The translations under genes were made by a program, and so were the position numbers. From positions 1 through 33,826 of the IMG/VR virus record IMGVR_UViG_3300046461_000315: DNA of 33,826 nucleotides. One strand, given 5' to 3'. Below the pieces are notes generated by a model, which worked only from the letters and a program-made list of their open reading frames with translations, was not told where the DNA came from and ran no database searches. The stretch comes from a virus. This document shows positions 3,464 through 17,305 of this stretch, piece after piece (within the stretch, counting starts at the first letter, position 1; each line of letters opens with the position of its first letter).

Positions 3464-3500
3464 GGTTCCTTCCCGTGGTCCCAACCTGGTCCCACAGCTT

Positions 3501-3524
3501 GGGGCCCGGACTTCTCCGGGCCCC
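3501..3524 (-). terminator. hairpin terminator after the 3541 gene
   Basis: Perfect 9-bp stem GGGGCCCGG / CCGGGCCCC with a 6-base loop (ACTTCT on the plus strand). It lies 17 bp past the leftward stop. There is no clear U-run, so it may be an attenuator rather than a full terminator. Confidence 0.6.
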
Positions 3525-3540
3525 GCGCTGTGCGCCCGGG

Positions 3541-3885
3541 CTACTCCTCCTCGACGTCCGGGTCGAGGTTCTCGCCCACGATCTCCGGCGCGCGCTCGGC
3601 GCCGCACAGCGCCTGGAACGCGTCGCAGAACCGGACGAAGGCGCGGACCGCGGACCGGATGTCCGTGCTGAGGTCCTTCCAGGACTCGCCCTCGCGCATC
3701 CGGACGATCGCCTGGGCGACGTAGCCGCGGTACGCGGTGGCCGTCGCGTCGGCCTTGTTGTCCGTCTGGGTCAGCCACTCCTGGAACGCCGGCAGGAGCT
3801 CGCGCTCCTCCGCGGGGAGCTTGTCCTCCCACGCGCCCGTCTTGCCGCCGGCCTCGCCGACGGCCTTCCGAAGCTCTTCGTACAT
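3541..3885 (-). CDS. divergent member of the SAM-like core-binding family
   Basis: Predicted 114 residues from ATG at 3885 with AGAGG upstream. By eye it aligns with the three closer paralogs at 5216, 5982 and 6683: an N-terminal Y-E-x-L-R-x-x-V, a central helix ending in a W-L, then AYRGYVAQAI where the others have SYKSYV-x2-AL, and LSTDIRSAVRAFVRF where they have LT-x-D-x-KSG-x-RKF. These helices resemble the N-terminal core-binding (SAM-like) domain of tyrosine recombinases. The R...HxxR...Y catalytic domain is absent. It ends in a long acidic tail (DPDVEEE), as does the 5216 protein. DNA binding is an inference from fold resemblance only. Confidence 0.7.
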   Translation of the reverse strand: MYEELRKAVGEAGGKTGAWEDKLPAEERELLPAFQEWLTQTDNKADATATAYRGYVAQAIVRMREGESWKDLSTDIRSAVRAFVRFCDAFQALCGAERAPEIVGENLDPDVEEE

Positions 3886-3935
3886 TTCCCGTACCTCTCT
3901 GTCAAGCGCTCGTCTGCGTCTCAGACCAGCTTGGC

Positions 3936-3956
3936 TGCGCCCCCGTGGGGGGCGCA
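3936..3956 (-). terminator. hairpin terminator closing the 4534-3969 operon
   Basis: Perfect 9-bp stem TGCGCCCCC (3936-3944) / GGGGGCGCA (3948-3956) with a 3-base loop, 12 bp past the leftward stop. The U-run is poor. Confidence 0.6.
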
Positions 3957-3968
3957 CCCAGGTTGGGC

Positions 3969-4178
3969 TCAGGACTTCGGGCTGAGCACCTCCCGGACCT
4001 TCATCTCGAGCTCGGGGTGCGTGATGATGCCCTGCTGGTACAGGGCGCCGAGCTTGCGCAGCTTCGGGTTGCCGCTCCTGAGGAGCTCGGCCACGGTCAT
4101 CTGCACGTTCGGGTCGGCGCGCGTCTCGGCCTCTTGGGCCCAGGCCGCGCGCAGCTCGTCGGTGACTTCTGGATGCAC
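3969..4178 (-). CDS. small hypothetical protein, 69 aa
   Basis: The start is set at GTG 4178, because GGAGGGAGGTGAAC lies directly upstream; a longer form from GTG 4214 would place that ribosome site inside the gene. The protein is helical with a clear C-terminal pattern of leucines and charged residues (MTVAELLRSGNPKLRKLGAL, then HPELEMKVREVL), possibly a small winged or helical bundle domain. It is third in the operon expressed from the TAGAAT promoter at 4612. No family recognised. Confidence 0.65.
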   Translation of the reverse strand: MHPEVTDELRAAWAQEAETRADPNVQMTVAELLRSGNPKLRKLGALYQQGIITHPELEMKVREVLSPKS

Positions 4179-4217
4179 TTGTTCACCTCCCTCCTGGGTC
4201 TCGTCGCGGGGCACGGC

Positions 4218-4352
4218 TCAGGACCTGTCCAGGACCTTGACCGGGACTTCGGTCGACAGGGTCTGGGCGCAGTCGAGGCACACCTCGGTCTCCATGTTGT
4301 CGTCGATCAGGACGTACAACGTGGCTTGCTTCGGGCAGAACTCACAGATCAC
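4218..4352 (-). CDS. 44-residue zinc-ribbon-like protein
   Basis: A short leftward frame from GTG 4352 (GGAGG upstream, spacer 7) to TGA 4218. It contains two C-x2-C pairs, Cys3/Cys6 (CEFC) and Cys25/Cys28 (CLDC), separated by a beta-like stretch (ATLYVLIDD). This is the layout of a minimal zinc ribbon. Such mini-ribbons often bind nucleic acid or a partner protein; which applies here is unknown. It lies between two well-supported genes, 11 bp after the first, which supports translation. Confidence 0.65.
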   Translation of the reverse strand: MICEFCPKQATLYVLIDDNMETEVCLDCAQTLSTEVPVKVLDRS

Positions 4353-4363
4353 GTCATGGCCTC

Positions 4364-4534
4364 CTAGTGCCACATCTTGTAGAACTCGATCGAGCTCTTG
4401 CGGGTCGTGTCCTGGGGCTTGCCGCGGAACACTGGGTGGGCGATGCGGTCCTCGTCACGCTTGCGTTGGACGTCAGCGTCTTTGTGCATCTTGATGAGGA
4501 ACGGGCTCGCGTACTTCTTCGGGTCTCTTGCCAT
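4364..4534 (-). CDS. small basic hypothetical protein, 56 aa
   Basis: ATG at 4534 is preceded by GGAGGTGAC, a near-ideal ribosome site, so the upstream in-frame ATG at 4597 is rejected. The protein is strongly charged and basic (MARDPKKYAS, HKDADVQRKRDEDR) with aromatic residues at the end (IEFYKMWH). It is the first gene after the leftward promoter at 4612, with a 5' leader of about 65 bases. No family recognised. Confidence 0.65.
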   Translation of the reverse strand: MARDPKKYASPFLIKMHKDADVQRKRDEDRIAHPVFRGKPQDTTRKSSIEFYKMWH

Positions 4535-4606
4535 GTCACCTCCAATCTTGTGTCGGGGCGTGGTCCAAGCTTGTTGGCTTCTTGGCTCCACTTTCATCCT
4601 ACATAC

Positions 4607-4612
4607 ATTCTA
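4607..4612 (-). promoter_or_regulatory. -10 box of leftward promoter (TAGAAT)
   Basis: Reads TAGAAT on the minus strand, followed by GTATGTAGGATGA, a start-site sequence closely matched at the 5615 promoter (GTAGGATGA). No -35 consensus is visible 16-18 bp upstream. The same TAGAAT occurs at all four leftward cassette promoters (4612, 5615, 6305, 6997). Confidence 0.6.
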
Positions 4613-4652
4613 GCACGCTTCGACAGCCCGGGGGAATAACCCAGAGACCTCT

Positions 4653-4672
4653 GTAGCGCACCTGTAGCGTTG
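4653..4672. promoter_or_regulatory. tandem GTAGCG motif upstream of the 4612 promoter
   Basis: GTAGCG occurs at 4653-4658 and again at 4664-4669 (followed by TTG), an 11-bp period. The same pair (GTAACG, GTAGCGTTG) lies 51-52 bp from the -10 box of the 5615 promoter. The phase and constant distance suggest an activator binding on one face of the helix. Confidence 0.5.
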
Positions 4673-4725
4673 GTCACTTGGAGACCCTCCCCGGGTGTCA
4701 CCCCGGCCGGTCGCCCTGGCCCCCC

Positions 4726-4776
4726 GCGCGAGACGGTTCGGGGAGGCTCGAGAGCCATATGGGGAGCCCCGCGGGG
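4726..4776. repeat. GC-rich intergenic repeat, copy A
   Basis: This is one of four copies of an element starting GCGCGAGA, then GGT-x-CGGGG, a short GGCTC...GAGAGCC dyad, CATA and a GGGG/CCCC run. It lies between a leftward terminator (4858-4880) and a leftward promoter (4612). The rest of 4621-4907 is GC-rich non-coding sequence with no supported gene. Confidence 0.55.
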
Positions 4777-4849
4777 CCGGACACCAGGGCGGCACCGGGG
4801 CGAACGTGCGGGGAGAGACACGGGGCGTCCGCCGGGGCGCCGGGGCACG

Positions 4850-4883
4850 AAGAAAGACCCCGCCGGCTGCGCCGGCGGGGCCT
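4850..4883 (-). terminator. rho-independent terminator after the 4908 gene
   Basis: Perfect 10-bp stem CCCCGCCGGC (4858-4867) / GCCGGCGGGG (4871-4880), followed on the minus strand by TCTTTCTTCG, a convincing U-rich tract. Confidence 0.85.
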
Positions 4884-4907
4884 CTCTGGGGAGCGGGCTG
4901 GGGTCTG

Positions 4908-5126
4908 TTAGTTGTACACCGCGAAGGCCAGCTCGAGCTCGTGGCCGACGGCCACTGCGAGCCCGAACCACGCCATGCCGGTGAGCTCCGGCACCTGCTC
5001 CATGCCGTCCTCGATGAGCGCCGTCAGGTAACTGCCGGCGTCCCAGGGCATGGCCCCGTCGCGCTCCATGGCGCCCAAGATGGTCCGTGTGCAGGCCTTG
5101 ATCAGGCGCTGCAGCCTCTCGTCCAC
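4908..5126 (-). CDS. small hypothetical protein, 72 aa
   Basis: Starts at GTG 5126, with AAGGAG seven bases upstream; a longer open frame in this phase has no supported start. The N-terminal half is a charged helix (DERLQRLIKACTRTILGAMER) and the C-terminal part is more hydrophobic (MAWFGLAVAVGHELELAFAV), which could be a short membrane-associating helix or a buried helix. It follows the SAM-like gene at 5216-5545 in the same direction, with a hairpin between them that may lower its expression. No family recognised. Confidence 0.65.
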   Translation of the reverse strand: MDERLQRLIKACTRTILGAMERDGAMPWDAGSYLTALIEDGMEQVPELTGMAWFGLAVAVGHELELAFAVYN

Positions 5127-5160
5127 GTCACTGCTCCTTCCCGAACAGCCACCCTGACTG

Positions 5161-5198
5161 TTCTGGTTGGGGCCCGTTCTCACGGGCCCCGCCCAGAA
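5161..5198 (-). terminator. hairpin between the 5216 and 4908 genes
   Basis: Stem GGGGCCCG (5169-5176) / CGGGCCCC (5183-5190) with loop TTCTCA, extended by outer pairing TTCTGG/CCAGAA. A small second hairpin (GAACC/GGTTC, 5196-5210) overlaps it. There is no U-run, so it may be an attenuator. Confidence 0.65.
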
Positions 5199-5215
5199 CC
5201 TTCGAGGTTCTTGTC

Positions 5216-5545
5216 TTACTCCTCTTCGTGGTCCGTGCTCACGGTCGTGGCGTCGACCCAGCCGAGGAACTTGCGCACGCCCGACTTCTCGTCGTTGGTG
5301 AGGTCTCCGTCCAGGCGCCCGGTGGACTTCAGCAGGGCCTTGGTCACGTACGACTTGTAGCTGTTGACGGAGGCCGCCGACATGGTCGTGGTCTTGAGCC
5401 ACGAGATGAACGCCGTCACGCTGGACTTCTCGTCGACGGTGAGCATCTCGAAGTACTTGCCGGTGTTCCCGGCCGTGGTCTTGACGGAGCTCCGAAGGGC
5501 CGCGTAGGGGTCCTCCGTGATGCTCTCGTCGGTGTACTCTGACAT
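5216..5545 (-). CDS. SAM-like core-binding miniprotein, paralog 2
   Basis: Predicted 109 residues, ATG 5545. It shares with the 5982 and 6683 proteins the ordered blocks DPY-x2-LR-x2-V, F-x-x-LT, V-x2-F-x3-L, SYKSYV-x2-AL, LTND-x-KSG-x-RKF and W-x-D. It differs by a longer acidic N-terminus, a five-residue insert before LTND, and an acidic tail ending EEE. The helical pattern resembles the N-terminal core-binding domain of tyrosine recombinases, but no catalytic domain follows, and the length (about 90-110 aa) is that of the domain alone. It has its own TAGAAT promoter. The role is unknown; sequence-specific DNA binding is the natural guess. Confidence 0.75.
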   Translation of the reverse strand: MSEYTDESITEDPYAALRSSVKTTAGNTGKYFEMLTVDEKSSVTAFISWLKTTTMSAASVNSYKSYVTKALLKSTGRLDGDLTNDEKSGVRKFLGWVDATTVSTDHEEE

Positions 5546-5609
5546 GGTCTTGTGCCTTTCTTGCAGGGTGCTTGCAGGCCGACTTGACCTTACATCATCC
5601 TACAACAAT

Positions 5610-5639
5610 ATTCTATCGCACCCCTAGGCAGCCTGTACA
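5610..5639 (-). promoter_or_regulatory. leftward promoter of the 5216 cassette
   Basis: On the minus strand TGTACA (5639-5634) and TAGAAT (5615-5610) are separated by 18 bp. The downstream GTAGGATGATGTAAG matches the start region of the 4612 promoter, not the palindrome of the 6305 and 6997 promoters. The leader is about 60 bases. Confidence 0.6.
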
Positions 5640-5654
5640 ATCTCCAGGGGCTTT

Positions 5655-5674
5655 GTAACGTGATGGTAGCGTTG
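5655..5674. promoter_or_regulatory. tandem GTARCG motif upstream of the 5615 promoter
   Basis: GTAACG (5655-5660) and GTAGCG (5666-5671, followed by TTG) are 11 bp apart, the same arrangement and distance from the -10 box as at 4653-4672. A GGAGACCC follows in both regions a few bases further on. Confidence 0.5.
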
Positions 5675-5727
5675 AGAGCACCGGAGACCCGTGAGACCCC
5701 GGCCACCCCCGAGACCGGCCCCGGCCC

Positions 5728-5780
5728 GCGTACACGGTACCGAGGGGCTCGAGAGCCAAGCCCCCACGGGGCGCCCCGCC
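5728..5780. repeat. GC-rich intergenic repeat, copy B2 (divergent)
   Basis: Contains GGTACCGAGGGGCTC, GAGAGCC and CACGGGGCGCCCCGCC. The last 16 bases recur exactly at 5840-5855, 75 bp away, so this intergenic region carries a tandem duplication of the element. Confidence 0.5.
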
Positions 5781-5798
5781 GCGCCGCCCGGGGAGACC

Positions 5799-5855
5799 GC
5801 GCGAGAAGGTGCGGGGGGCTCTGAGAGCCATAGGGGCCCCACGGGGCGCCCCGCC
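5799..5855. repeat. GC-rich intergenic repeat, copy B1
   Basis: Closest to the consensus: GCGCGAGAAGGT, a GGCTCTGAGAGCC dyad, CATAGGGGCCCC and CACGGGGCGCCCCGCC. It lies about 50 bp beyond the leftward terminator at 5897-5920. The non-coding stretch 5640-5893 holds only this repeat family and the promoter-linked motifs. Confidence 0.55.
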
Positions 5856-5893
5856 GGTGGCGGGGCGGCGGGGCCGCCCGGCGCCACAACGAC

Positions 5894-5922
5894 AAATGGC
5901 CGGCCCCGTAGGGCCGGCCACT
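5894..5922 (-). terminator. rho-independent terminator after the 5982 gene
   Basis: Perfect 10-bp stem TGGCCGGCCC (5897-5906) / GGGCCGGCCA (5911-5920) with a 4-base loop. On the minus strand it is followed by TTTGTCGTTG, a good U-rich tract. Confidence 0.85.
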
Positions 5923-5981
5923 TGAGGCGCTTCGGGTCGCCGGTGGGGTGGTGCTTCGGGCGCCCCAGCGCGCCCTCAGCA

Positions 5982-6257
5982 TCACTCCCCGTCAAGCCAC
6001 TTGAAGAACTTGCGAAGTCCCGACTTCCGGTCGTTCGTAAGTTCCTCGCCGACCAAGGCACACACCACGTAGCTCTTGTAAGAAGCCACAGTGGCCTTGG
6101 TCCACCCGAGCCCCTCGAGGTGCTTCACGAATCCCAGCACTTGCTTCTGCTGGTCCGACGTGAGCTTGTCGAAGTTCCCGGAGCGGCTCGACGAACCCTT
6201 CGAAACCTGCTTGCGCAAGTGCTCGTAGGGATCCTCGATAGGTTCCTGTTCTGTCAT
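5982..6257 (-). CDS. SAM-like core-binding miniprotein, paralog 3
   Basis: Predicted 91 residues. The start is set at ATG 6257 because GGGAGGTGAACAG precedes it; the in-frame ATG at 6275 would put the ribosome site inside the gene. It is very similar to the 6683 protein, sharing VLGFVKHLEGLGWTKAT and ASYKSYVVCAL, then EELTNDRKSG and RKF-x2-WLD near the end. The small residue-rich region near 22-32 (KGSSSRSG) is the most variable part. The family pattern is that of a stand-alone recombinase core-binding domain, with no catalytic residues. The cassette has its own operator, promoter and terminator, which points to recent duplication of a whole unit. Confidence 0.8.
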   Translation of the reverse strand: MTEQEPIEDPYEHLRKQVSKGSSSRSGNFDKLTSDQQKQVLGFVKHLEGLGWTKATVASYKSYVVCALVGEELTNDRKSGLRKFFKWLDGE

Positions 6258-6278
6258 CTGTTCACCTCCCTTCAAGGC

Positions 6279-6305
6279 TAGAATGTTTCTGTTAGAAACA
6301 TTCTA
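6279..6305. promoter_or_regulatory. 27-bp palindromic operator over the 6305 promoter
   Basis: Perfect 12-bp arms TAGAATGTTTCT (6279-6290) and AGAAACATTCTA (6294-6305) around GTT. The right arm contains the leftward -10 box, so a protein bound here would block the promoter. The inner 10-bp arms recur exactly at 6973-6995. Confidence 0.85.
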
Positions 6306-6328
6306 TCGCTCTTGAGCCAACTTGTACA
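6300..6328 (-). promoter_or_regulatory. leftward promoter of the 5982 cassette
   Basis: On the minus strand TGTACA (6328-6323) and TAGAAT (6305-6300) are separated by 17 bp. Transcription would begin inside or just after the palindromic operator, giving a leader of about 35-40 bases before the ribosome site. Confidence 0.65.
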
Positions 6329-6359
6329 TAGCTAATAGTAGTCATTTTCTTTAGCTATG
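6327..6359. repeat. inverted repeat CATAGCTAA/TTAGCTATG at the -35 region
   Basis: Perfect 9-bp arms (6327-6335 and 6351-6359) flank a 15-base centre containing TAGTCATTTTC. A second element at 7017-7054 has different but still perfectly complementary arms and the same central 11-mer, in the same place relative to its promoter. Confidence 0.7.
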
Positions 6360-6370
6360 ACGGTCTAGCT

Positions 6371-6386
6371 ATAAGTGACTAGTCAC
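6371..6386. repeat. palindrome GTGACTAGTCAC within a repeated 12-mer
   Basis: GTGACTAGTCAC (6375-6386) is a perfect palindrome. Its left part belongs to ATAAGTGACTAG (6371-6382), which recurs at 7109-7120. Likely a further binding site of the cassette control region. Confidence 0.5.
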
Positions 6387-6494
6387 CCCGGAGACCGAGA
6401 GGGGCGGCGCGCGCGCGGGGCCCTGGCCCCGAGAGAGCCAGGGCCTGGCCCCGGCCCCCGGCCCGGCTGGCCGGGGCGCGCGGCCGGCGGCCGG

Positions 6495-6540
6495 CGCGCG
6501 AGAGGTACGGGGGGCTCTGAGACCCAATAGGGCTCGTGGC
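6495..6540. repeat. GC-rich intergenic repeat, copy C
   Basis: Reads GCGCGAGAGGTACGGGG, GGCTCTGAGACCC, then AATAGGG. It lies about 45 bp beyond the terminator of the 6683 gene, the same position as copies A and B1. The neighbouring 6387-6494 is an extremely GC-rich non-coding stretch in which I see no gene. Confidence 0.5.
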
Positions 6541-6555
6541 CCCGCCCCCCGCCAC

Positions 6556-6611
6556 GACGTGACGGCTTGCGCCGTAACGTCAAAGAGCCGGCCCTTTCGG
6601 GCCGGCTCCTT
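6556..6611 (-). terminator. rho-independent terminator plus second hairpin after the 6683 gene
   Basis: The main stem is GAGCCGGCCC (6585-6594) / GGGCCGGCTC (6599-6608) with a 4-base loop, followed on the minus strand by TTTGACG. A second hairpin directly downstream (GACGTGACGGC / GCCGTAACGTC, about 6556-6581, one mismatch) follows it. Confidence 0.8.
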
Positions 6612-6652
6612 GGGGTGCCTTCGAGTCACCGTCACAATCTTTCGGGCGGCCG

Positions 6653-6676
6653 GGGCCGCCCCTCTCGGGGCGGCCC
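6653..6676 (-). terminator. hairpin directly after the 6683 stop
   Basis: Perfect 10-bp stem GGGCCGCCCC / GGGGCGGCCC with a 4-base loop, 6 bp past the stop codon. No U-run follows; it may protect the 3' end of the mRNA or act with the terminator further on. Confidence 0.55.
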
Positions 6677-6682
6677 TGCCAC

Positions 6683-6946
6683 TCACTTGCTGTCGAGCCA
6701 GCCGAGGAACTTACGCATGCCGGACTTCCGGTCATTCGTGAGCTCTTCACCAGCCAGGGCGCACACCACGTAGCTCTTGTAGCTCGCGATGGTGGCCTTG
6801 GTCCAGCCGAGGCCTTCGAGGTGCTTCACGAAGCCGAGCACGTCTTGCTGCTGGGCCGCGGTGAGCTTCTCGAAGTTCGCGGACTTGGCCGAAGCGGACT
6901 TCGCAACTTGCGCGCGAAGGGCTTCGTATGGGTCTTGATCTGCCAT
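6683..6946 (-). CDS. SAM-like core-binding miniprotein, paralog 4
   Basis: Predicted 87 residues; ATG 6946 follows GGAGGTTAAC. It is the shortest and most compact member: DPYEALRAQV, an Ala/Ser/Lys linker, FEKLT, then VLGFVKHLEGLGWTKAT, ASYKSYVVCAL, ELTNDRKSG and RKFLGWLD. These blocks correspond to the successive helices expected of a recombinase core-binding domain. It contains no Arg-His-x2-Arg or catalytic Tyr motif. It heads the leftward region and is controlled by an operator nearly identical to that of the 5982 cassette. The gene pair and its control DNA were probably duplicated together. Biological role unknown. Confidence 0.8.
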   Translation of the reverse strand: MADQDPYEALRAQVAKSASAKSANFEKLTAAQQQDVLGFVKHLEGLGWTKATIASYKSYVVCALAGEELTNDRKSGMRKFLGWLDSK

Positions 6947-6972: not shown

Positions 6973-6995
6973 GAATGTTTCTTATAGAAACATTC
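6973..6995. promoter_or_regulatory. 23-bp palindromic operator over the 6997 promoter
   Basis: Perfect 10-bp arms GAATGTTTCT (6973-6982) and AGAAACATTC (6986-6995) around TAT. The arms are the same as at 6281-6303 with only the 3-bp centre changed, as expected for two sites of one dimeric regulator. Confidence 0.85.
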
Positions 6996-7020
6996 TACCA
7001 CGTCCGAACTAGAAAGTAAA
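6992..7020 (-). promoter_or_regulatory. leftward promoter of the 6683 cassette
   Basis: On the minus strand TTTACT (7020-7015) and TAGAAT (6997-6992) are separated by 17 bp. The -10 box overlaps the palindromic operator. Confidence 0.7.
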
Positions 7021-7054
7021 TAGCCCATTCTAGTCATTTTCGTATGGCTATTTA
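7017..7054. repeat. inverted repeat TAAATAGCC/GGCTATTTA at the -35 region
   Basis: Perfect 9-bp arms (7017-7025 and 7046-7054) flank a 20-base centre that contains TAGTCATTTTC (7031-7041), the same 11-mer as at 6339-6349. The left arm overlaps the leftward -35 hexamer, as in the 6327-6359 element. Confidence 0.7.
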
Positions 7055-7057
7055 GAG

Positions 7058-7082
7058 CTAGGTCAGACCTAGTCATGACTAG
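7058..7082. repeat. overlapping CTAG palindromes in the divergent control region
   Basis: CTAGGT-CAG-ACCTAG (7058-7072) overlaps the perfect 14-bp palindrome CTAGTCATGACTAG (7069-7082). More CTAG-containing motifs follow to 7125. The cluster lies between the leftward cassettes and the rightward late operon, so it may coordinate the two. Confidence 0.55.
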
Positions 7083-7139
7083 CTAATCCGGGCTAGACCG
7101 GCACCGTCATAAGTGACTAGCTAACGCGCGTAGCTGCGC

Positions 7140-7219: not shown

Positions 7220-7681
7220 ATGTCTGACATCGGATTCGGTGAGATCGAGCTGCTGGCCGACGCACGGCGCGAACAACGCGACGCGGACGCCGAGCGGCAG
7301 GCCCTGCTGGACGCCGCCCGCCACCAGGTCGACGAGGCCCGGATCGGCATGGCCAGCCTGGCCGCCCCCGCCGTGGCGCTGATCGCGGCCCGCCTGCACG
7401 GCCTGGACGCCGACTGGGACGGCCGCAAGGTCACGGACGAGCGCATCGAGATGGCGCTCACGGTCCTGGACCGGATCGGCCTGCCCAAGCTCCGCGCCAC
7501 GGCCATCGCCGCGTCGATCGCCCACGCGCCGCACAGCCCCGCCCCTGGATCCCCCGGCTGGGCTCCGGCGGTGGACGGCGGCGACGAGGCCGAGGAGCTG
7601 GACGTCGGGTCGGTGGACGCGCAGATCACCGCCTTCCTGGAGGGCGTCATCGTAGGGCGCGAGGAGGGCCACGGCGGGTGA
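7220..7681 (+). CDS. probable terminase small subunit
   Basis: Predicted 153 residues; ATG preceded by TTTGGAGGACTCAGC. It lies directly upstream of and overlaps the large terminase gene by 4 bp, which is the standard place for the small subunit that recognises packaging sites on the phage DNA. The N-terminal 50 residues form a charged helix (ARREQRDADAERQALLDAAR), the middle is helical and Ala/Leu-rich (MASLAAPAVALIAARLHGLD), and a Pro/Gly linker leads to an acidic C-terminal segment that could contact the large subunit. The call rests on position and general composition more than on motifs. Confidence 0.6.
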   Translation: MSDIGFGEIELLADARREQRDADAERQALLDAARHQVDEARIGMASLAAPAVALIAARLHGLDADWDGRKVTDERIEMALTVLDRIGLPKLRATAIAASIAHAPHSPAPGSPGWAPAVDGGDEAEELDVGSVDAQITAFLEGVIVGREEGHGG

Positions 7682-9351
7682 CGGTCGACCACGACGGCGA
7701 GTTCATCGACGCGCCCGACGCCCCCGACTACGAACAGGCCCCCGAGGAGGGGCTCGACAGGCACCTGCTGACCCGCGAGCAGTGGTCGCAGTGGCCGACG
7801 TGGGCGAAGCTGCGGTTCCTCCGCAGGCTGCGCACCGAGGGCGCCGGCAGGCCCGACCAGTACATCGACGACACGCTGGAGTGGTACCTCTGGGTGCTGC
7901 TCGGGGGCCGCGGCTCCGGCAAGTCCGACGAGTCAAGCCGCTGGTCCACCGAGGACGCGCTGCGGATGGCCTGGATCAGGTTCGCCCTGGTCGCCCGCAC
8001 GTTCTCCGACGTCCGCGACACGATGTTCGAGGGGGAGACCGGCATCCTGGCCGTCATCCCGGACCACGAGCTGAGGGGCGGCTCCAGGGAGAAGGCGTAC
8101 AACCGGTCCCTGGGCGAGCTGTTCCTGGCGAACGGCTCGAAGTTCAAGGGGTTCTCGTCCGAGAAGCCCGCCCAGCTCCGAGGCCCCCAGCACCACAGGG
8201 CCTGGTGCGACGAGTCGTCCTCCTGGGACGACGCCGACGTGCCGAACCTCGTGACCAAGAGGGGCCTGGCCCCCGCCGTCGACACCACTATGTCCAACCT
8301 CATGCTCGGCCTGCGCCTCAAGCCGCCCGACGGCTCCGGCGTCAGGATGGTGGCGGCCACCACGCCGAAGCCCAACGAGCTCACCGAGTTCATGGACCAG
8401 CACCCCAAGGCCGTCGTCCGGGTCCTGAGCACGTACTCCAACCTGAAGAACCTCGACTCCGAGGTCGCCGACGTGGTGATCGGGATGTACGAGGGCACCG
8501 ACGTCGCGGCCCAGGAGCTGGAGGGCCGCATCCTGCGCCAGGCCAAGGGAGCCGGCTGGGACGTCGACTCCATCGAGGCGGCCAGGGCGCGCGCCGCGTT
8601 CGGCGAGGTCGCCCGCACCGTCCTGGGCATCGACCCCGCCGTCAGCTCCAAGGACACCTCCGACGAGACCGGCCTCGTGGTCATCTCGCTAGAGAAGTCC
8701 GTCGAGCGCGACTCCGAGGAGAAGGGCCTGCACGTCCTCGCCGACGAGTCCGGCAAGGTGGACGTCTCCGAGTTCGGCTCCACGGTCGTCAACGTCGTGG
8801 AGCGGCACCTGGTGGACGTGGCCGTGGTCGAGGTCAACAACGGCTACGACTTCGTCGTGAACGCGGTGACCGCCTACGTCGAGTCCGAGGGCGGCACGGT
8901 CGTCCGCCGGACCCGCAAGGAGAAGAAGTCCGTCCGGTCGAAGACCCGCCTGGTCATCGAGTACATCTGCGAGACCGCCGACGGCCACTCGTTCACCCTC
9001 AAGCCCGTCTGGCAGTCGGTCGACAAGCTGACCCGCGCCAAGGCGGCCAGCGTCTGGTGGCACCAGGGCAGGGCCCGGCACGGCGCCGGCCTGGACAAGC
9101 TCGAGAAGCAGATGACCACGTTCGACGGCTCCGGCAAGAAGTCCCCGGACAGGCTCGACGGCCTGTCCAGCGCGGTCGCCGAGTTCTCGGGCGAGCGCAG
9201 GCTCCGCCCCGCTCGCGGCGCCAGCCCCCTCAACCTGGGCGACGACGGCGGGGCTCCCCCCACGCACCCGCTGCTGGCCGGCGCCACGCCGGAGCTCGAC
9301 CCGGCCTCCCCCGGCCGGGGCGGGATGTCCACGTGGGCCGCACGGATCTAG
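7678..9351 (+). CDS. terL: terminase large subunit
   Basis: 557 residues from a GTG overlapping the previous stop. This is the ATP-driven DNA packaging motor and nuclease that docks on the portal. The Walker A motif GGRGSGKS lies at residues 76-83, the Walker B with its catalytic acid (AWCDES) near 175-180, and the coupling motif AATTP near 226-230. The C-terminal RNase-H-like nuclease begins at GIDPAVSSKD (first acidic residue near 319), with further acids in the VVEVNNGYD and DRLDGLSSA stretches. Length and order of motifs are normal for the family. It is followed by a structured non-coding gap of 118 bp. Confidence 0.95.
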   Translation: MTVDHDGEFIDAPDAPDYEQAPEEGLDRHLLTREQWSQWPTWAKLRFLRRLRTEGAGRPDQYIDDTLEWYLWVLLGGRGSGKSDESSRWSTEDALRMAWIRFALVARTFSDVRDTMFEGETGILAVIPDHELRGGSREKAYNRSLGELFLANGSKFKGFSSEKPAQLRGPQHHRAWCDESSSWDDADVPNLVTKRGLAPAVDTTMSNLMLGLRLKPPDGSGVRMVAATTPKPNELTEFMDQHPKAVVRVLSTYSNLKNLDSEVADVVIGMYEGTDVAAQELEGRILRQAKGAGWDVDSIEAARARAAFGEVARTVLGIDPAVSSKDTSDETGLVVISLEKSVERDSEEKGLHVLADESGKVDVSEFGSTVVNVVERHLVDVAVVEVNNGYDFVVNAVTAYVESEGGTVVRRTRKEKKSVRSKTRLVIEYICETADGHSFTLKPVWQSVDKLTRAKAASVWWHQGRARHGAGLDKLEKQMTTFDGSGKKSPDRLDGLSSAVAEFSGERRLRPARGASPLNLGDDGGAPPTHPLLAGATPELDPASPGRGGMSTWAARI

Positions 9352-9804: not shown

Positions 9805-11376
9805 GTGCCGCTCCACTCGCCAGCCCGCCGCGCGGGCGTCGAGGCCCTCCTGGCAGCCGCCGAGCCGGGCCCCACGTCCATCGTGGGCTCCGTGGAGTCG
9901 CTCCAGGGCCACCTGACCAAGGACGGCTCGGTAGAGTCACCGCGGCTCGCCCGGGCCTGGGCCCTGTACGAGACGCCGGAGGTCAGGTTCGCCTGCCGGC
10001 AGTACTCCAACGCCTTCTCGTCGGCCAAGCTCCAGATCGGCCGCAGGCCGAAGCCGTGGCGCGACCCCGTGCCGATCACCGACCCCAAGACGCCGTCAGA
10101 GGTGAAGGCGCTCGAGCTTCTCGAGTCGTTCGCCGGCGGCCCCGTGGGCCAGGCCGAGCTGCTGGACCGCATGGGCACCTACTTCATGGTGACCGGCGAC
10201 ATGGCGCTGGTCGGGGCCTACGACCCCGGGCACATCGCGGACAACAAGTTCGCCAGGTGGGACGTGTGGTCCACGACCGAGATCCGCTGGACCGGCAGGA
10301 CCATCCGGATCCGCGAGCACGCCGTCGAGGACATCTGGCAGGAGATGCCGGAGTACATCAAGCACCTGCGGGTGTGGAACCGGCACCCCCGCCGCGGGTG
10401 GGAGTCCGACAGCCCGGTGCTGTCCGCCATGAACGTGCTCGAGCTCGCCGGCCTGTACGACGACCGCCTGGCCGCGGAGGCGCTCAGCCGCCTCATCGGC
10501 GCCGGCGTCTGGATGATCCCCCAGGGCATGAAGCTGCCCACGTCCACCGGCGAGGCCGGCGGGCCGGAGGACTTCCTCAAGCTCCTGCGGATGGTCGCCG
10601 AGCTGGCCATCAAGGACCGCCGGTCCGCGGCGGCCAACGTCCCGATCATGATCGAGGCCGCGGCGGACGACATCGAGGCGGCCTCCAAGGGCAGGATGAC
10701 GTTCCACACCGAGTTCGCCGCGTCGATCGGCGACCTCCAGGAGGCCGCGTTCCGCCGCTGGGCCACGGGCGTCGACATCCCCGCCGAGGTCATGCTCGGC
10801 ATGTCCCAGGCCACCCACTGGAACGCCAGCCTCATCTCCGAGGACAAGGTCCAGTCGTTCATCATCCCGTCGCTGCGCCGGGCCACCGGCAACATCTCGA
10901 TCGGCTGGCTCTGGCCCGCGCTGTCCGAGTTCGGCCTGCCCCGCGAGGGCCTGGAGATGTGGTTCGACCCCGCCGGCATCAAGACGCGCGTCGACCTGGC
11001 CGACGAGACCGAGTGGGCGCACGACAGGTTCCTGGTCACTGACCAGGACACGAAGTACGCGCTCGGCCTGAGCCAGATGGCCGACCCGACGGACGAGCAG
11101 CTCAAGCGGATGCTCCTCCTCCACATGGCGCAGCAGTCGCCCGAGTTCATCCCCGAGATCATGACCGAGCTCGGCATCAAGAACGACATGCCGGGCCTGA
11201 CCAAGCGGCAGGCCATGCTGACGGACCTGGCCCAGCAGGCGAGGATCACCCCGGCCGGGTCCAACCCGGCGGCGCCCGCCGGCAACGGCAAGCCGGGCCC
11301 CCAGGCCAACCAGGAGCGATCCGCACCGCCCAACGGCGCCGGTCGCACCGCCAAGCTCGGGACGCAGAGGAGCTGA
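9805..11376 (+). CDS. portal protein
   Basis: 523 residues from a GTG, with GGGGGTAG upstream. The portal is a dodecameric ring at one capsid vertex through which DNA is packaged. The sequence shows the usual actinophage portal features: an N-terminal region with RFACRQYSNAFSSAKLQIGR, a central alpha/beta region (TYFMVTGDMALVGAY, DVWSTTEIRWTG), a stem-type helical part around SPVLSAMNVLELAGLYDDRL and a crown-like C-terminus that becomes Gly/Pro/Asn-rich after about residue 485. It lies between terL/DUF1360 and the protease, as expected. The assignment rests on position, length and recognisable family segments. Confidence 0.9.
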   Translation: MPLHSPARRAGVEALLAAAEPGPTSIVGSVESLQGHLTKDGSVESPRLARAWALYETPEVRFACRQYSNAFSSAKLQIGRRPKPWRDPVPITDPKTPSEVKALELLESFAGGPVGQAELLDRMGTYFMVTGDMALVGAYDPGHIADNKFARWDVWSTTEIRWTGRTIRIREHAVEDIWQEMPEYIKHLRVWNRHPRRGWESDSPVLSAMNVLELAGLYDDRLAAEALSRLIGAGVWMIPQGMKLPTSTGEAGGPEDFLKLLRMVAELAIKDRRSAAANVPIMIEAAADDIEAASKGRMTFHTEFAASIGDLQEAAFRRWATGVDIPAEVMLGMSQATHWNASLISEDKVQSFIIPSLRRATGNISIGWLWPALSEFGLPREGLEMWFDPAGIKTRVDLADETEWAHDRFLVTDQDTKYALGLSQMADPTDEQLKRMLLLHMAQQSPEFIPEIMTELGIKNDMPGLTKRQAMLTDLAQQARITPAGSNPAAPAGNGKPGPQANQERSAPPNGAGRTAKLGTQRS

Positions 11377-11377
11377 C

Positions 11378-13132
11378 ATGCCCTGGACCGTAGTCATCAA
11401 GAACCACCGGTTCTGCGTCTACAAGCAGGACGTGCACCAGGGGCCGGCCGTGGGCAAGTCCCTCGGCTGCCACCCCACGCGCGACCAGGCGAACGAGCAG
11501 CTCAGGGCCTTGTACGCGAGCGAGGCCGACAGGACCGCGGCGGCGGCGGCACCGGGTGACCCCCAGCCTCCTGCGAGCCCCGCCGCCGCGCCCCCCGATC
11601 AGGGCGTCTCGACCGACGGGCCGGTCGCGGCCGGCGTGGCGCTCCACTCCCTGGCCACGGGCCGCGTGCTGTTTATCCAGCGCGCCCTGATCGACGGCGA
11701 GGCCGCCGGCGGGCTGTGGGAGATCCCGGGCGGGACGCTCGACCCCGGCGAGACGCCGTGGGACGCCGCGCAGCGAGAGTTCGGCGAGGAGGTTGGCCAC
11801 CCGCTCCCCGAGGGCGAGGTCGCCGGCACCTGGGTCAGCCCGAACGGCGTCTACCAGGGCTTCTGCTACTGCTGCGCCTCCGAGGACGACGTCCCGATGG
11901 GCCAGACCGACCCCGCGAACCGCGCGGTTGACAACCCGGACAACCCGGGCGGCTCCAACTACACCGAGTCGATGGCGTGGATGGACCCGGCGCACATGGA
12001 CCGCGGCCCCAGGCTGCTGCGCCCCGAGATGCGGACCGGCACGCCGTGGGGCATGCTCAAGTCGCCGACCCTCACGGCCTCCGGCGGGTTCTGCACCCCC
12101 GAGGGCGTGTACCTCGACGACCTGAAGGACGACGCCGTCACCTCGGTCCGGCTGTTCGACGCGGGTCACGTCGCGGTCGGCGAGGAGCAGGCGTTCCTCG
12201 ACCTCATGGACGAGGTGCTGCTCGCGGCCGGGTCCGACCAGCACGCGCCCTTCACGGTCAAGCTCAGCACGGGCTGGGCGTACCCGATCCCGTCCGTCGC
12301 CTTCCTGTCGAAGGCGATCAAGGCGTTCGGGCGGGCCAAGCCGCAGGACCGGGCCAAGGTCAAGGCCCACATCATCGCGCGGGCCAAGCAGCTCGGCGCG
12401 TCGAACCAGATCCCCAAGGAGTGGACCAGCATGACCGCATCTGCCACCGAAGAGTTCGAGTCGCTGGTGGCGTCGATCGCCTTCCCGGCGTCGGCCCTCC
12501 TCCCCGAGGAGCCGCTGCCGGGCCCGACGCCGTGGACCATCAAGGATGACCTCACCGCGGACGGGCACCTCGCCTTGTGGGCCAGCTGCCACATCGGCTA
12601 CCCGGGCTGCGTCACCCCTCCCCGGGAGGACTCGTTCGACTTCTTCAACCTCGGCGACGCCGTGACGGCCGACGGGCGCCACGTCCCGGTCGGCAAGGTC
12701 ACGGTCGGCTGCGGCCACGCCGGCGCCGAGCTGTCCTGGCGGACCGCCGCGGCCCACTACGACCACAGCGGGGCCGGCGTCGCGGTGGCGCACGCCATGG
12801 CCGACCGGTGGGGCATCCGCCTGCCCGCCGTGATCGTCGCCGACGCCGGCAGCCCGCAGATCGACGAGGCGCGCCGCTCCCCCCTCTCGGGGGACTGGCG
12901 CCGCATCAACGGCAAGCTGCGGCTCGTCGCCGCGCTCGGCGTGAACGTCCCCGGCTACCCGGTCCCCCGGGCCATGGTGGCCTCCGGCGAGGTCGAGTCG
13001 ATGTTTGTCGGGTTCAACCCGGAGGACGCCGCCGCGATCGTGCTCGAGGCCGACTCGCTGGCCGCCTCGATCGGACTCGACCTGGGCGGCCGGGCCGCTT
13101 CACTCCGCGAATCCCTCGGCCTGTCGACGTGA
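11378..13132 (+). CDS. Nudix hydrolase fused to capsid maturation protease
   Basis: 584 residues in one frame. Residues 1-50 form a small domain ending GCHPTRDQAN and LRALYASEA, common on these proteins. A Pro/Ala linker leads to a Nudix domain whose box is nearly complete (G119, E125, R133-E134, E137-E138, G140; only the last hydrophobic position is His). Around 290-345 comes a helical block of the DUF6582 type (YPIPSVAFLSKAIKAFGR, then IIARAKQLGAS). The C-terminal part, from about 385, matches actinophage capsid maturation proteases (HLALWASCHIGYPGC, LSGDWRRINGKLRLVAAL, NVPGYPVPR). Nudix enzymes cleave nucleoside diphosphate-linked compounds; the protease part should trim capsid subunits. 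An internal ATG at 12431 has AAGGAG nine bases upstream. Confidence 0.85.
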   Translation: MPWTVVIKNHRFCVYKQDVHQGPAVGKSLGCHPTRDQANEQLRALYASEADRTAAAAAPGDPQPPASPAAAPPDQGVSTDGPVAAGVALHSLATGRVLFIQRALIDGEAAGGLWEIPGGTLDPGETPWDAAQREFGEEVGHPLPEGEVAGTWVSPNGVYQGFCYCCASEDDVPMGQTDPANRAVDNPDNPGGSNYTESMAWMDPAHMDRGPRLLRPEMRTGTPWGMLKSPTLTASGGFCTPEGVYLDDLKDDAVTSVRLFDAGHVAVGEEQAFLDLMDEVLLAAGSDQHAPFTVKLSTGWAYPIPSVAFLSKAIKAFGRAKPQDRAKVKAHIIARAKQLGASNQIPKEWTSMTASATEEFESLVASIAFPASALLPEEPLPGPTPWTIKDDLTADGHLALWASCHIGYPGCVTPPREDSFDFFNLGDAVTADGRHVPVGKVTVGCGHAGAELSWRTAAAHYDHSGAGVAVAHAMADRWGIRLPAVIVADAGSPQIDEARRSPLSGDWRRINGKLRLVAALGVNVPGYPVPRAMVASGEVESMFVGFNPEDAAAIVLEADSLAASIGLDLGGRAASLRESLGLST

Positions 13133-13468: not shown

Positions 13469-15142
13469 ATGCCGGACAGCTTCGAGCTCCCGGAACTCGA
13501 CGGACTGGACCTGACGGCGCTCCGCGCGCTCGAGGTGCAGGCCAAGAAGGCCTTCAGCGATCGGTACGACGCAGGCGCGACGTCCCGCGAGGACCTGGAG
13601 GAGCTGCAGACCCTGGCCGAGGCGGTTCAGACCGTCCAGGCCGCCATCACGGCGTCCGACCCCGCGCCGGAGCCCGAGGCCGAGCCGGCCGCGGACCCCG
13701 AGCCGGAGCCGGAGCCCGCAGCGGACCCCGAGCCCGCCGGCGACAAGGTGCTGGAGTCGTTCCTCGAGGCGCTCGCCTCGCGGCCGGCCCCGGCGGCCGA
13801 GCCCGCCGTCGAGCCCGCCGTCGCCGCGGACCCCGCCCCGGCGGTCGACCCCGCGGTCGAGTCCATCGCGGCCGGGGGCGACCCCAAGGACGTGCAGCTG
13901 CCGATCGACAACACGCCGATCGTCATCCTCGCGTCGGCCGACATCCCGGGCGTCCCGTCCGGGTCCGAGCTCCAGGGCTGGGACGGCATCGTCTCGGCGA
14001 TCGGCGCCAAGGCCCGCTCGCTGCCCGACATGCCGGGCCAGCTGCGGCCCTTCCCCGTCGCCTCCATCATGAAGCCGATGAAGCCCGAGCGCCAGCTCGA
14101 CGGCCTGTCGGACGCCGAGGTGATGGAGCGGCTGAACGACCTGTCCAGCCCGGCGTACCTCCTCGCGGAGCTCTCCCGGACCGCCTCCGGCGGCTGGTGC
14201 GCGCCGAACGAGACGGTGTACGAGTTCGCGTGCGAGGTCGAGGCCCCGCCCGACGCGGTGGACCTCCCGTCCTTCGGGTCGGCGAAGCGCGGCGGGATCA
14301 ACTTCCCGGTCAGCCCGACGTTCCGCGACTTCAAGTCGCTCGTCAACAACGGGCTCTTCACGTGGACGGAGGCCGACGACCAGGCCGCCGCCACGGGCTC
14401 CCCGACGAAGCCGTGCTTCAAGGTCCCGTGCGTGGACTTCGACTCGGCCCGCCTCGAGCTCGAGGGCCTGTGCGTCACCGCGGGCAACCTGATGGACATG
14501 GCCTACCCGGAGCTCATCCGGCGCTACCTCAGCCTCGTCCTGACGGCCCACCTCCACCGGCTGAACACGCGGAAGATCGCAAAGATGCTGGCGGTCATCG
14601 ACGACCACGTCACGCTGCCGGCCACCTTCGCGGCGGCCTCCGCCGTGTTCGACGCCCTCGGCCTGCAGGCCGCGGACCTCAGGGACCAGTTCTCCATGTC
14701 GGAGGGCGCGCTCCTCGAGGTCATGATGCCACGCTGGGCACGGGGGCCGGCCAGGTCCGACGTCGCCCGGCGCGAGCTGTCCACCTTCGGTGACATCTCC
14801 GACGCCGACGTGCTCAACTACTGGCAGGACCAGGGCGTCCGCATCCAGTTCGTCTCGAACTGGCAGGAGCTCGGCGACCCCGAAGACCCGGCCACCGTCT
14901 GGCCGACGACGTTCGACTTCCTCATGTGGCTGCCGGGGGCGTACAAGCTCCTCGACGGCCCGAAGCTGGACATCGCCGTCACCCGCGACTCGGTCCAGAA
15001 CGCCACCAACGACTACACGGTGGCGTTCACGGAGGAGGCCTACCAGGTCTTCAAGCCGGGCTGCGGCGCCCGCCTCGTGACCCTGCCGATCTGCCCGTCC
15101 GGAGCTTCCGGCGATCGGGTCGCCCTGGGCTGCGAGTCGTAG
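13469..15142 (+). CDS. major capsid protein with N-terminal scaffold-like domain
   Basis: 557 residues; ATG after AAGGAGAG. Residues 1-60 are a charged coiled-coil-like region, 65-130 a Pro/Glu/Ala/Asp-rich linker with repeated AADPEPEPE-type units, and the remainder is the predicted HK97-fold shell protein. The N-terminal part probably acts as a delta domain that guides assembly and is then removed by the protease encoded just upstream. Recognisable capsid segments include TASGGWCAPNETVYEF, INFPVSPTFRDF, the LEGLCVTAGNLMDMAYPELI block and the near-C-terminal DYTVAFTEEAYQVFKPGCG. Position after portal and protease is standard. The exact cleavage site cannot be read from the sequence; the region near 145-165 is likely. 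Confidence 0.9.
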   Translation: MPDSFELPELDGLDLTALRALEVQAKKAFSDRYDAGATSREDLEELQTLAEAVQTVQAAITASDPAPEPEAEPAADPEPEPEPAADPEPAGDKVLESFLEALASRPAPAAEPAVEPAVAADPAPAVDPAVESIAAGGDPKDVQLPIDNTPIVILASADIPGVPSGSELQGWDGIVSAIGAKARSLPDMPGQLRPFPVASIMKPMKPERQLDGLSDAEVMERLNDLSSPAYLLAELSRTASGGWCAPNETVYEFACEVEAPPDAVDLPSFGSAKRGGINFPVSPTFRDFKSLVNNGLFTWTEADDQAAATGSPTKPCFKVPCVDFDSARLELEGLCVTAGNLMDMAYPELIRRYLSLVLTAHLHRLNTRKIAKMLAVIDDHVTLPATFAAASAVFDALGLQAADLRDQFSMSEGALLEVMMPRWARGPARSDVARRELSTFGDISDADVLNYWQDQGVRIQFVSNWQELGDPEDPATVWPTTFDFLMWLPGAYKLLDGPKLDIAVTRDSVQNATNDYTVAFTEEAYQVFKPGCGARLVTLPICPSGASGDRVALGCES

Positions 15143-16113: not shown

Positions 16114-16250
16114 CCGAGGTGCGGACCGAGAACTTCCAGAAGTTCACGGCCGCCGTAGCCCAGGCACGGTCAGAAGGAAAGAAGGTCTCGATCAAGGTCG
16201 AGGCCGGACAGTACGTCGCCACCCTCACCAACCAGGAGACGGACGAGTGA
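16110..16250 (+). CDS. 46-residue hypothetical protein
   Basis: A short frame from ATG 16110, overlapping the upstream stop (ATGA), to TGA 16250, which overlaps the GTG of the next gene. It is lysine- and glutamate-rich (RTENFQKFTAAVAQARSEGK, then VSIKVEAGQYVATLTNQ) and has a helix-then-strand look. The overlaps at both ends strongly support translation. No family recognised. Confidence 0.65.
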   Translation: MTEVRTENFQKFTAAVAQARSEGKKVSIKVEAGQYVATLTNQETDE

Positions 16251-17305
16251 AGGTCATCGTGTACCCCGCGGACGCCTACGCCTGCGGCCACTACAGGGCC
16301 TACTGGCCCGCCGAGGTCCTGGCCCGCCAGGGCGTGGACGTGAAGATCGTCAGGCCGGGCGAGCCCACGGGCATCTCCGGCCTGATGATCGGCGGCAGGC
16401 TGAGCGCCTCGGCGCCTGACTGCGACGTCGTGGTGTTCCAGCGCCCCGGCCGCAAGCTGCTCGCCGACCTGGTGGAGCCGCTCCGGCGGATGGGCGTCGC
16501 CGTCGTGGTGGACGTGGACGACGACCTCGACAGGATCGACCCGCGTAACCCGGCCTTCGCGGCCATGCACCCCAAGGGCGAGAACGGTGACAACGGGTAC
16601 AGCTGGGCCAACGTGCGCCGGGCCTGCAAGGACGCCACGATGGTCACGGTCTCCACGCCTTCGCTGCTGCCCCGCTACGCCGCGCACGGCAGGGCGAGGC
16701 TGCTGTACAACTACGTCCCCGCGCGGATGACCCTGCTCGAGCACGACCCGGCGGAGGACTCCCTCGGCTGGGCCGGGGCGCTGCACTCCCACCCGGGAGA
16801 CCTGGATCAGCTGGGTTGGGCGTTCGCCAGGCTCCAGCGGGAGGGGCGCACCCTCAAGTTCGTAGGCCCGTCCGAGGGCCTGGAGCGGAAGCTCGGCGTG
16901 ACCCTCGAAGAGGGCGACTGCACCGGCGAGCTGCCCTTCGGCGACTGGCTGCCGGCCGTCGCCAAGCTGGGCGTCGGCGTGGCCCCGCTGGCCGACACCT
17001 CGTTCAACGCCTCCAAGAGCTGGCTCAAGCCGCTCGAGTACTCGGCGGTCGGGGTGCCCTGGGTCGCCTCCGACACCCTGGAGTACCGCCGACTCGCCAG
17101 GGAGTGCGGAGCCCCACTGGTCTCGAAGCCCAAGCATTGGTACCCGGAGCTGCGGCTCCTGCTGGACGACCGGGCCCGCCGGGAGGACCTCTCCGCCGCG
17201 GTGAGGGAGGCCGCGAGGGGGCTGACGGTCGAGGGCCACTGCCACCTGTGGGCCGAGGCTTGGGCCGACGCGGTGAAGACGGAGCGGGCGGCGGCCAGGC
17301 CATGA
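16247..17305 (+). CDS. glycosyltransferase (GT-B type)
   Basis: 352 residues from a GTG overlapping the previous stop. The N-terminal half has a Rossmann-like start with a GHYRAYWPAEVL loop, as in GT-B enzymes that process glycan or nucleotide-sugar substrates. An acidic VDVDDDLDRID lies near residues 89-100. The C-terminal half carries the donor-binding region (FVGPSEGLE, then LPFGDWLPAVAKL, GVAPL and KPLEYSAVGVPWVASD). It is likely cytoplasmic and soluble. The place, between capsid and tail genes, suggests it modifies virion proteins, as shown for some mycobacteriophages; the substrate here is inferred, not proven. Confidence 0.8.
   Translation: MKVIVYPADAYACGHYRAYWPAEVLARQGVDVKIVRPGEPTGISGLMIGGRLSASAPDCDVVVFQRPGRKLLADLVEPLRRMGVAVVVDVDDDLDRIDPRNPAFAAMHPKGENGDNGYSWANVRRACKDATMVTVSTPSLLPRYAAHGRARLLYNYVPARMTLLEHDPAEDSLGWAGALHSHPGDLDQLGWAFARLQREGRTLKFVGPSEGLERKLGVTLEEGDCTGELPFGDWLPAVAKLGVGVAPLADTSFNASKSWLKPLEYSAVGVPWVASDTLEYRRLARECGAPLVSKPKHWYPELRLLLDDRARREDLSAAVREAARGLTVEGHCHLWAEAWADAVKTERAAARP

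Follow-up and report, generated by a model that had tools for sequence, protein, structure and literature searches.

Four duplicated phage cassettes encode orphan mini-proteins that resemble the start of a tyrosine-recombinase core-binding domain

What are four small, related genes without a recognisable enzymatic partner doing in a phage, and what were they derived from? The question is raised by the virus record IMGVR_UViG_3300046461_000315, a linear record of 33,826 bases (~69% GC) that was analysed as a whole and is hereafter called the window. To the left of its terminase gene, small genes on the minus strand form a block, and four mini-protein genes, A, B, C and D, are part of it (Table 1). 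The initial annotation had interpreted their products as free-standing core-binding domains of tyrosine recombinases, multiplied with promoters and terminators of their own. We find that the four genes constitute a real paralogous family, orphan and duplicated as cassettes, and that its resemblance to recombinase core-binding domains is limited to the start of that domain.

The open reading frames (ORFs) starting the argument, at 3541, 5216, 5982 and 6683, are real: the third-codon GC pattern of all four is coding-like, and three of the four are preceded by good ribosome-binding sites. Two of the annotated starts had to be revised because of start codons and ribosome-binding sites, D most likely beginning at ATG 3885 (114 residues, not 138) and B at ATG 6257 (91 residues, not 97). 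The sequence blocks that had suggested a common origin were confirmed, 18-19 alignment columns being invariant across the four proteins, among them Y-x2-LR-x2-V near the N-terminus, F and L in the first core helix, Y-x2-YV in the second and D-x2-S-x2-R-x-F in the third. Pairwise identity is highest between A and B (74%) and reaches 43% for C and A (single-pair BLASTP, E 4e-23) and 34% for C and D (single-pair BLASTP, E 6e-15). When a profile built from three members was run on the six-frame translation of the window, the member left out was recovered each time with a significant match (E 8.5e-35 for A, 4.2e-35 for B, 6.9e-27 for C and 5.8e-12 for D), and no fifth member was found in that translation, where the next-best ORF scored E 2.7 or worse. 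The A/B pair is under purifying selection, since the nonsynonymous rate is 0.20 against a synonymous rate of 1.02, with differences mostly at third codon positions. As initially annotated, a catalytic part is absent: the proteins, 87-114 residues long, end at or soon after the third helix without the R-K-H-R-H/W-Y domain of a tyrosine recombinase, and no catalytic ORF is fused or adjacent to the four genes.

A sigma70-like consensus scan returned four sites in the region against 0.3 expected, three of them exactly upstream of A, B and C. The box TAGAAT occurs five times on the minus strand of the whole window, always between 4612 and 7032, and four of these copies lie at cassette promoters; the fourth such promoter is predicted to drive a small gene (4534-4364) whose product is unrelated in sequence to the mini-proteins. 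GC-rich hairpins with a strong fold (z -4.4 to -5.6) stand closely 3' of all four family genes; the second one at A and the one at B run into a short T stretch. The claim that each gene has its own promoter and terminator thus appears to stand for A, B and C, which have both a predicted promoter and a hairpin, but not for D, which is followed by a hairpin, has no promoter recognisable in the consensus scan, and comes after other small genes that run the same way. Because the intergenic stretches of the array share repeated modules, and because the DNA identity of A and B (~70%) extends through coding and promoter parts alike, the sequence indicates that duplication took in entire units of promoter, gene and terminator. 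A GC-rich repeat, TGGCTCTC(A)GAGCC-YCCCG-N-ACC, is also present once or twice per intergenic stretch of the array (4733-4757, 5734-5758, 5806-5830 and 6503-6528).

The promoters of A and B share a further element, which the initial annotation did not mention: a 23-bp palindrome, present at two sites in the window and at none in 100 shuffles with up to three mismatches allowed (0 expected). Its arms are identical at A and B, while the 69 bases around it are just 72% identical. The palindrome starts inside the -10 box and is centred (at 6984 and 6292) 8 nucleotides after it, so that transcription of A and B would begin mid-palindrome; the transcript would therefore not fold into the corresponding RNA hairpin, and a DNA operator bound by a dimeric repressor would suit this arrangement. 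We consider the palindrome a likely operator, suggesting strong regulation of A and B, either by the mini-proteins themselves or by a phage repressor encoded outside the contig. The palindrome was not found in the other viral contigs scanned. Upstream of both promoters lie AT-rich regions, to which the motif TAGCTA is confined within the window. C (5615-5595, minus strand) and the 4364 gene (4612-4594, minus strand) have cassette promoters of another class than those with the palindrome: both contain TAGAAT...TGTAGGATGA at the start site and, further upstream, the motif CAACGCTAC.

Profile-profile comparison is more sensitive than single-sequence scans. Integrases, actinobacterial and related, were gathered through a search with the integrase of mycobacteriophage Giles and a PF02899 search, and their core-binding domains were compared with the mini-protein family. 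With 24 Xer-type core-binding domains, the first helical hairpin aligned in hhalign at a probability of 82% (P 1.1e-5, score 34.3), compared with scores of at most 15.1 in 200 column shuffles, 17.4 for 13 natural decoy profiles, 13.4 for six other small proteins of the window and 15.4 for thirteen small proteins of other phages. Decoy profiles of sigma region 4, HTH_3, terminase and the integrase catalytic domain received probabilities of 0-5%; in a separate extraction, PF02899 reached 78%, sigma region 4 5% and HTH_3 0.5%. Giles-type core-binding domains reached 17%. The aligned pattern, F-x3-L ... AT-x2-SY-x2-Y(V/L), is a hairpin of two helices of about 37-47 columns, and the third helix, beyond it, holds basic residues at two positions four apart.

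AlphaFold models of A and D, built from the four-sequence alignment, contain only three confident helices, preceded at the N-terminus by short helices of low certainty (A: helices 8-16, 30-46, 50-64 and 71-86, mean predicted local distance difference test score 77; D: helices 25-41, 46-64 and 74-94, mean score 68). The best structural match of the D model is XerA (PDB 4a8e), over residues 9-87, its core-binding domain (Z 5.1, root-mean-square deviation (rmsd) 3.4 over 64; next row Z 3.1). The Xer-type core-binding (SAM-like) domain, PF02899, has the two-helix hairpin pattern in common with the mini-proteins, which differ from it in lacking a catalytic domain, any Pfam match and a high charge. 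A complete core-binding domain consists of two perpendicular helical hairpins, four helices in all (PMC3646895); compared with this cruciform, the modelled mini-proteins would retain one hairpin and one helix, and the proposal of a full domain is not supported. Among viral folds, the match with the highest Foldseek probability among those listed (0.60) is another short protein, the 81-residue "Tyrosine recombinase" of Siphoviridae sp. ctr2f5 (UniProt A0A8S5QEE1; rmsd 2.4 over 46 columns), at an E-value of 3.4 and 15% identity and possibly a gene fragment. The PAXT-1 XRN2-binding domain (PDB 5fir), similar to the A model in helix arrangement (rmsd 2.6 over 58), is a eukaryotic protein-interaction domain with 9% identity, within the chance range for helical bundles; structure-library matches to PAXT-1, TFIIB/cyclin and sigma region 4 were judged generic helical-bundle likeness. 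We conclude that the resemblance to the start of the core-binding domain is specific but not proven, being partly supported by profiles (hhalign 78-82% against at most 5% for decoys) and by the model of D. The family is probably a truncated core-binding-type domain, rather than a demonstrated member; the DNA binding, competition with an integrase and regulatory network that the initial annotation proposed would be further conjectures.

No relatives were found elsewhere. Neither the 50,697 phage records searched by tblastn with A, C and D nor the 72,556 plasmids searched with B gave anything significant, and pattern scans, which detect close relatives only, found none in viral contigs (queried with three members and the alignment) or in genome contigs (queried with the alignment). 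The family profile retrieved only alpha/beta hydrolases from 396 Actinomycetota genomes (the phylum of the Cellulomonas genome G002), and no relative from 20 terminase-related viral records and six phages; other phages carrying the family were thus not encountered in the records searched. The hydrolases, CocE-like by sequence reading, were rejected as chance matches after inspection of the alignments; matches to PF24109, SAP30, TetR_C and GrcA fell below cut-offs, and small reverse-strand genes near the terminase of Woodruffvirus and TurkishDelight phages proved unrelated by profile. A weak match of C residues 33-62 to phrog_21869 (86 residues, unknown function) is not significant (E 0.012), and the failure to find phrog_21869 in the 396 genomes or in controls is uninformative. 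No Rfam family matched, and the literature searched yielded no account of free-standing partial core-binding domains arranged in arrays. The family appears to be without relatives in the phage, plasmid, viral-contig and genome collections searched.

What could such proteins do? The reading that we rank first, tentatively, is that a free-standing helical domain, arisen from a local array of duplicated cassettes, acts as a regulatory binding module. Each cassette would yield a free-standing domain of ~60 residues, resembling the first core-binding hairpin plus one helix, with no catalytic part. The palindrome, which lies over the -10 box and start site, would be occupied by a dimeric repressor, either the phage immunity repressor or the mini-proteins, and A and B would be silenced; lifting the block would release a burst of mini-proteins. 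These would take part in phage regulation by binding without catalysis, their conserved basic third helix (D-x-[KR]-S-x2-R-[KA]-F) touching DNA or a partner bound to it. With their different promoters and acidic tails, C and D could be variants in timing or partners. A precedent for a recombinase fold turned phage regulator is MrpR (YopR), the master repressor of prophage SPbeta, a recombinase-fold protein that has lost recombination and acts as a repressor (PMC10516654). The likeness is one of description, not of sequence comparison, and MrpR differs in its 320 residues, in keeping both domains and in binding the SPBRE element.

Several observations weigh against a regulatory binding module. 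No repressor or integrase was recognised among the ORFs scanned in the contig, itself perhaps incomplete, and neither C nor D has the palindrome. Scanned as single sequences against Pfam, NCBIfam and PHROGs, the proteins gave no significant core-binding match, the best being integrase phrog_5127 (E 0.0083 if D begins at its over-long GTG, 0.11 from its ATG start), and the related integrase family PF14659 reached just 8% in hhalign. The core charges of the four proteins (+1, +3, +2 and -2) are near neutral, at or below those of the integrase core-binding segments collected (means +3.2, standard deviation 3.4, and +6.4, standard deviation 2.5), and C and D as a whole are acidic. The top match of the A model is an unrelated protein-binding fold, PAXT-1 (Z 6.2), followed by TFIIB-like folds, the Cre core-binding domain standing behind at Z 3.7, so that a core-binding domain leads the structural matches of D but not those of A; such low Z values are often seen with helical bundles. 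Finally, a four-sequence profile gives shaky E-values, as illustrated by the alpha/beta hydrolases matched at 4e-4 by chance.

Close second comes the possibility that the mini-proteins serve host takeover or anti-defence. They would be small, compact helical bundles, expressed early from strong promoters, that bind host proteins, and their core-binding likeness would reflect distant ancestry or a common helical pattern without any DNA-related function. The genes are small, fast-evolving, orphan and duplicated, and stand among other small orphan genes opposite the structural genes; the acidity of C and D, the protein-interaction domain that best matches the A model and the lack of relatives in the searches run all agree with such a role, whereas the profile link, specific to core-binding and not to other helical DNA-binding domains, argues against it. 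Third, and unlikely in our view, the mini-proteins might be decoys or dominant-negative partners of a tyrosine recombinase, be it a phage integrase or the host XerC/XerD, a piece that enters the protomer interface and blocks or directs recombination. The nearest profile match is indeed to Xer/PF02899-type core-binding domains, and those of Cre contact one another between protomers over 1066 square angstrom (PMC3646895). However, the missing integrase, in a contig that may be incomplete, also tells against decoys, only half of the domain is recognisable, and four diverged copies exceed the need for one decoy. Decaying remnants of integrase genes could account for a partial domain in several copies, but intact frames with a coding signature, purifying selection on A/B, dedicated promoters, ribosome-binding sites and hairpins make decay very improbable. 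That unrelated helical small proteins share motifs by chance, as the ~30% identity of D to the others might hint, is refuted by the leave-one-out values (E 5.8e-12 to 4e-35); the duplicated promoter regions of A and B also speak against it, and its probability is negligible.

Table 1 Features of the mini-protein array and landmark genes of the window
Feature	Position	Strand	Evidence or remark
Mini-protein A	6683..6946	-	87 residues, isoelectric point (pI) 8.8; family profile and leave-one-out
Mini-protein B	5982..6257	-	91 residues from ATG; 74% identical to A; leave-one-out
Mini-protein C	5216..5545	-	109 residues, acidic tail, pI 4.9; BLASTP, leave-one-out
Mini-protein D	3541..3885	-	114 residues from ATG, most divergent, pI 4.5; BLASTP, leave-one-out
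Promoter of A, TTTACT-17-TAGAAT	6992..7020	-	Consensus scan
Promoter of B, TGTACA-17-TAGAAT	6300..6328	-	Consensus scan
Promoter of C, TGTACA-18-TAGAAT	5610..5639	-	Consensus scan
TAGAAT box of fourth cassette promoter; shares TAGAAT...TGTAGGATGA with promoter C	4600..4612	-	Motif comparison
Palindrome GAATGTTTCT-N3-AGAAACATTC, likely operator of A, covering its -10 box and predicted transcription start	6973..6995		Palindrome scan
Same palindrome GAATGTTTCT-N3-AGAAACATTC, same geometry, at B; arms identical to A copy	6281..6303		Palindrome scan
AT-rich region upstream of promoter A; TAGCTA and AATGACTA motifs common with B	7033..7123	-	Motif comparison
AT-rich region upstream of promoter B; three TAGCTA, ACTAGTCA, AATGACTA	6329..6385	-	Motif comparison
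Hairpin directly after A	6653..6676	-	Fold z -4.4; 10-bp perfect arms
Second hairpin after A, then TTTG: terminator-like	6585..6608	-	Fold z -5.0
Hairpin after B, then TTTG: terminator-like	5897..5920	-	Fold z -5.5
Hairpin after C	5151..5208	-	Fold z -5.4
Hairpin after D	3485..3540	-	Fold z -5.6
Terminase large subunit	7678-9351	+	Pfam PF03237
Portal	9805-11376	+	phrog_776
Major head protein	13469-15142	+	phrog_777, E 4e-106

The plus-strand structural block of the window also contains head-tail adaptor, tape measure and endolysin genes. The best relatives of the capsid protein, among the matches listed, are from phages of Streptomyces, Microbacterium, Gordonia and Mycobacterium; because they reach just 31-36% identity, the virus is classed, from its sequence, as an actinobacteriophage-like tailed phage without close described relative. 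This uncultured phage would belong with those whose hosts are soil bacteria akin to Streptomyces. Between the portal and capsid genes, a 584-residue protein (11378-13132, plus strand) contains, at residues 83-175, a NUDIX hydrolase domain (PF00293, E 4e-15) in the slot that a capsid maturation protease/MuF fusion occupies in related phages. Its C-terminal part, by eye, resembles a protease-type minor capsid protein, and the putative NUDIX-capsid protein fusion looks unusual. A tRNA-Ser(gct) called by ARAGORN antisense within this coding region (12711-12803, minus strand) is probably a false positive. A glycosyltransferase-like gene (16247-17305, plus strand; phrog_7162, E 1e-27) lies between the capsid and endolysin genes. 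In the same leftward block as the mini-protein genes, a 44-residue protein with two CxxC pairs (MICEFCPKQ...CLDC; 4218-4352, minus strand) is likely a zinc-binding miniprotein; another small protein (3969-4178, minus strand) ends in a SHOCT-like motif (PF09851, E 8e-5, just short of the cut-off).

If the regulatory reading were borne out in full, the array could represent a new class of phage regulator, in which free-standing core-binding halves, multiplied as cassettes, bind palindromic operators that cover the start sites of their own genes, together making up a self-regulating switch of several paralogues, a scenario that we regard as rather improbable. Should the resemblance reflect true ancestry, the DNA-clamp domain of a recombinase would have been pared down to a single hairpin and copied as an independent module equipped with its own operators, one step past the recombinase-derived repressor MrpR, and whether half a core-binding domain alone can bind DNA or a recombinase would become testable. 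If it does not, the locus would still provide a clean example of how phage small-gene arrays, tightly controlled, arise through duplicated promoter-gene-terminator units.

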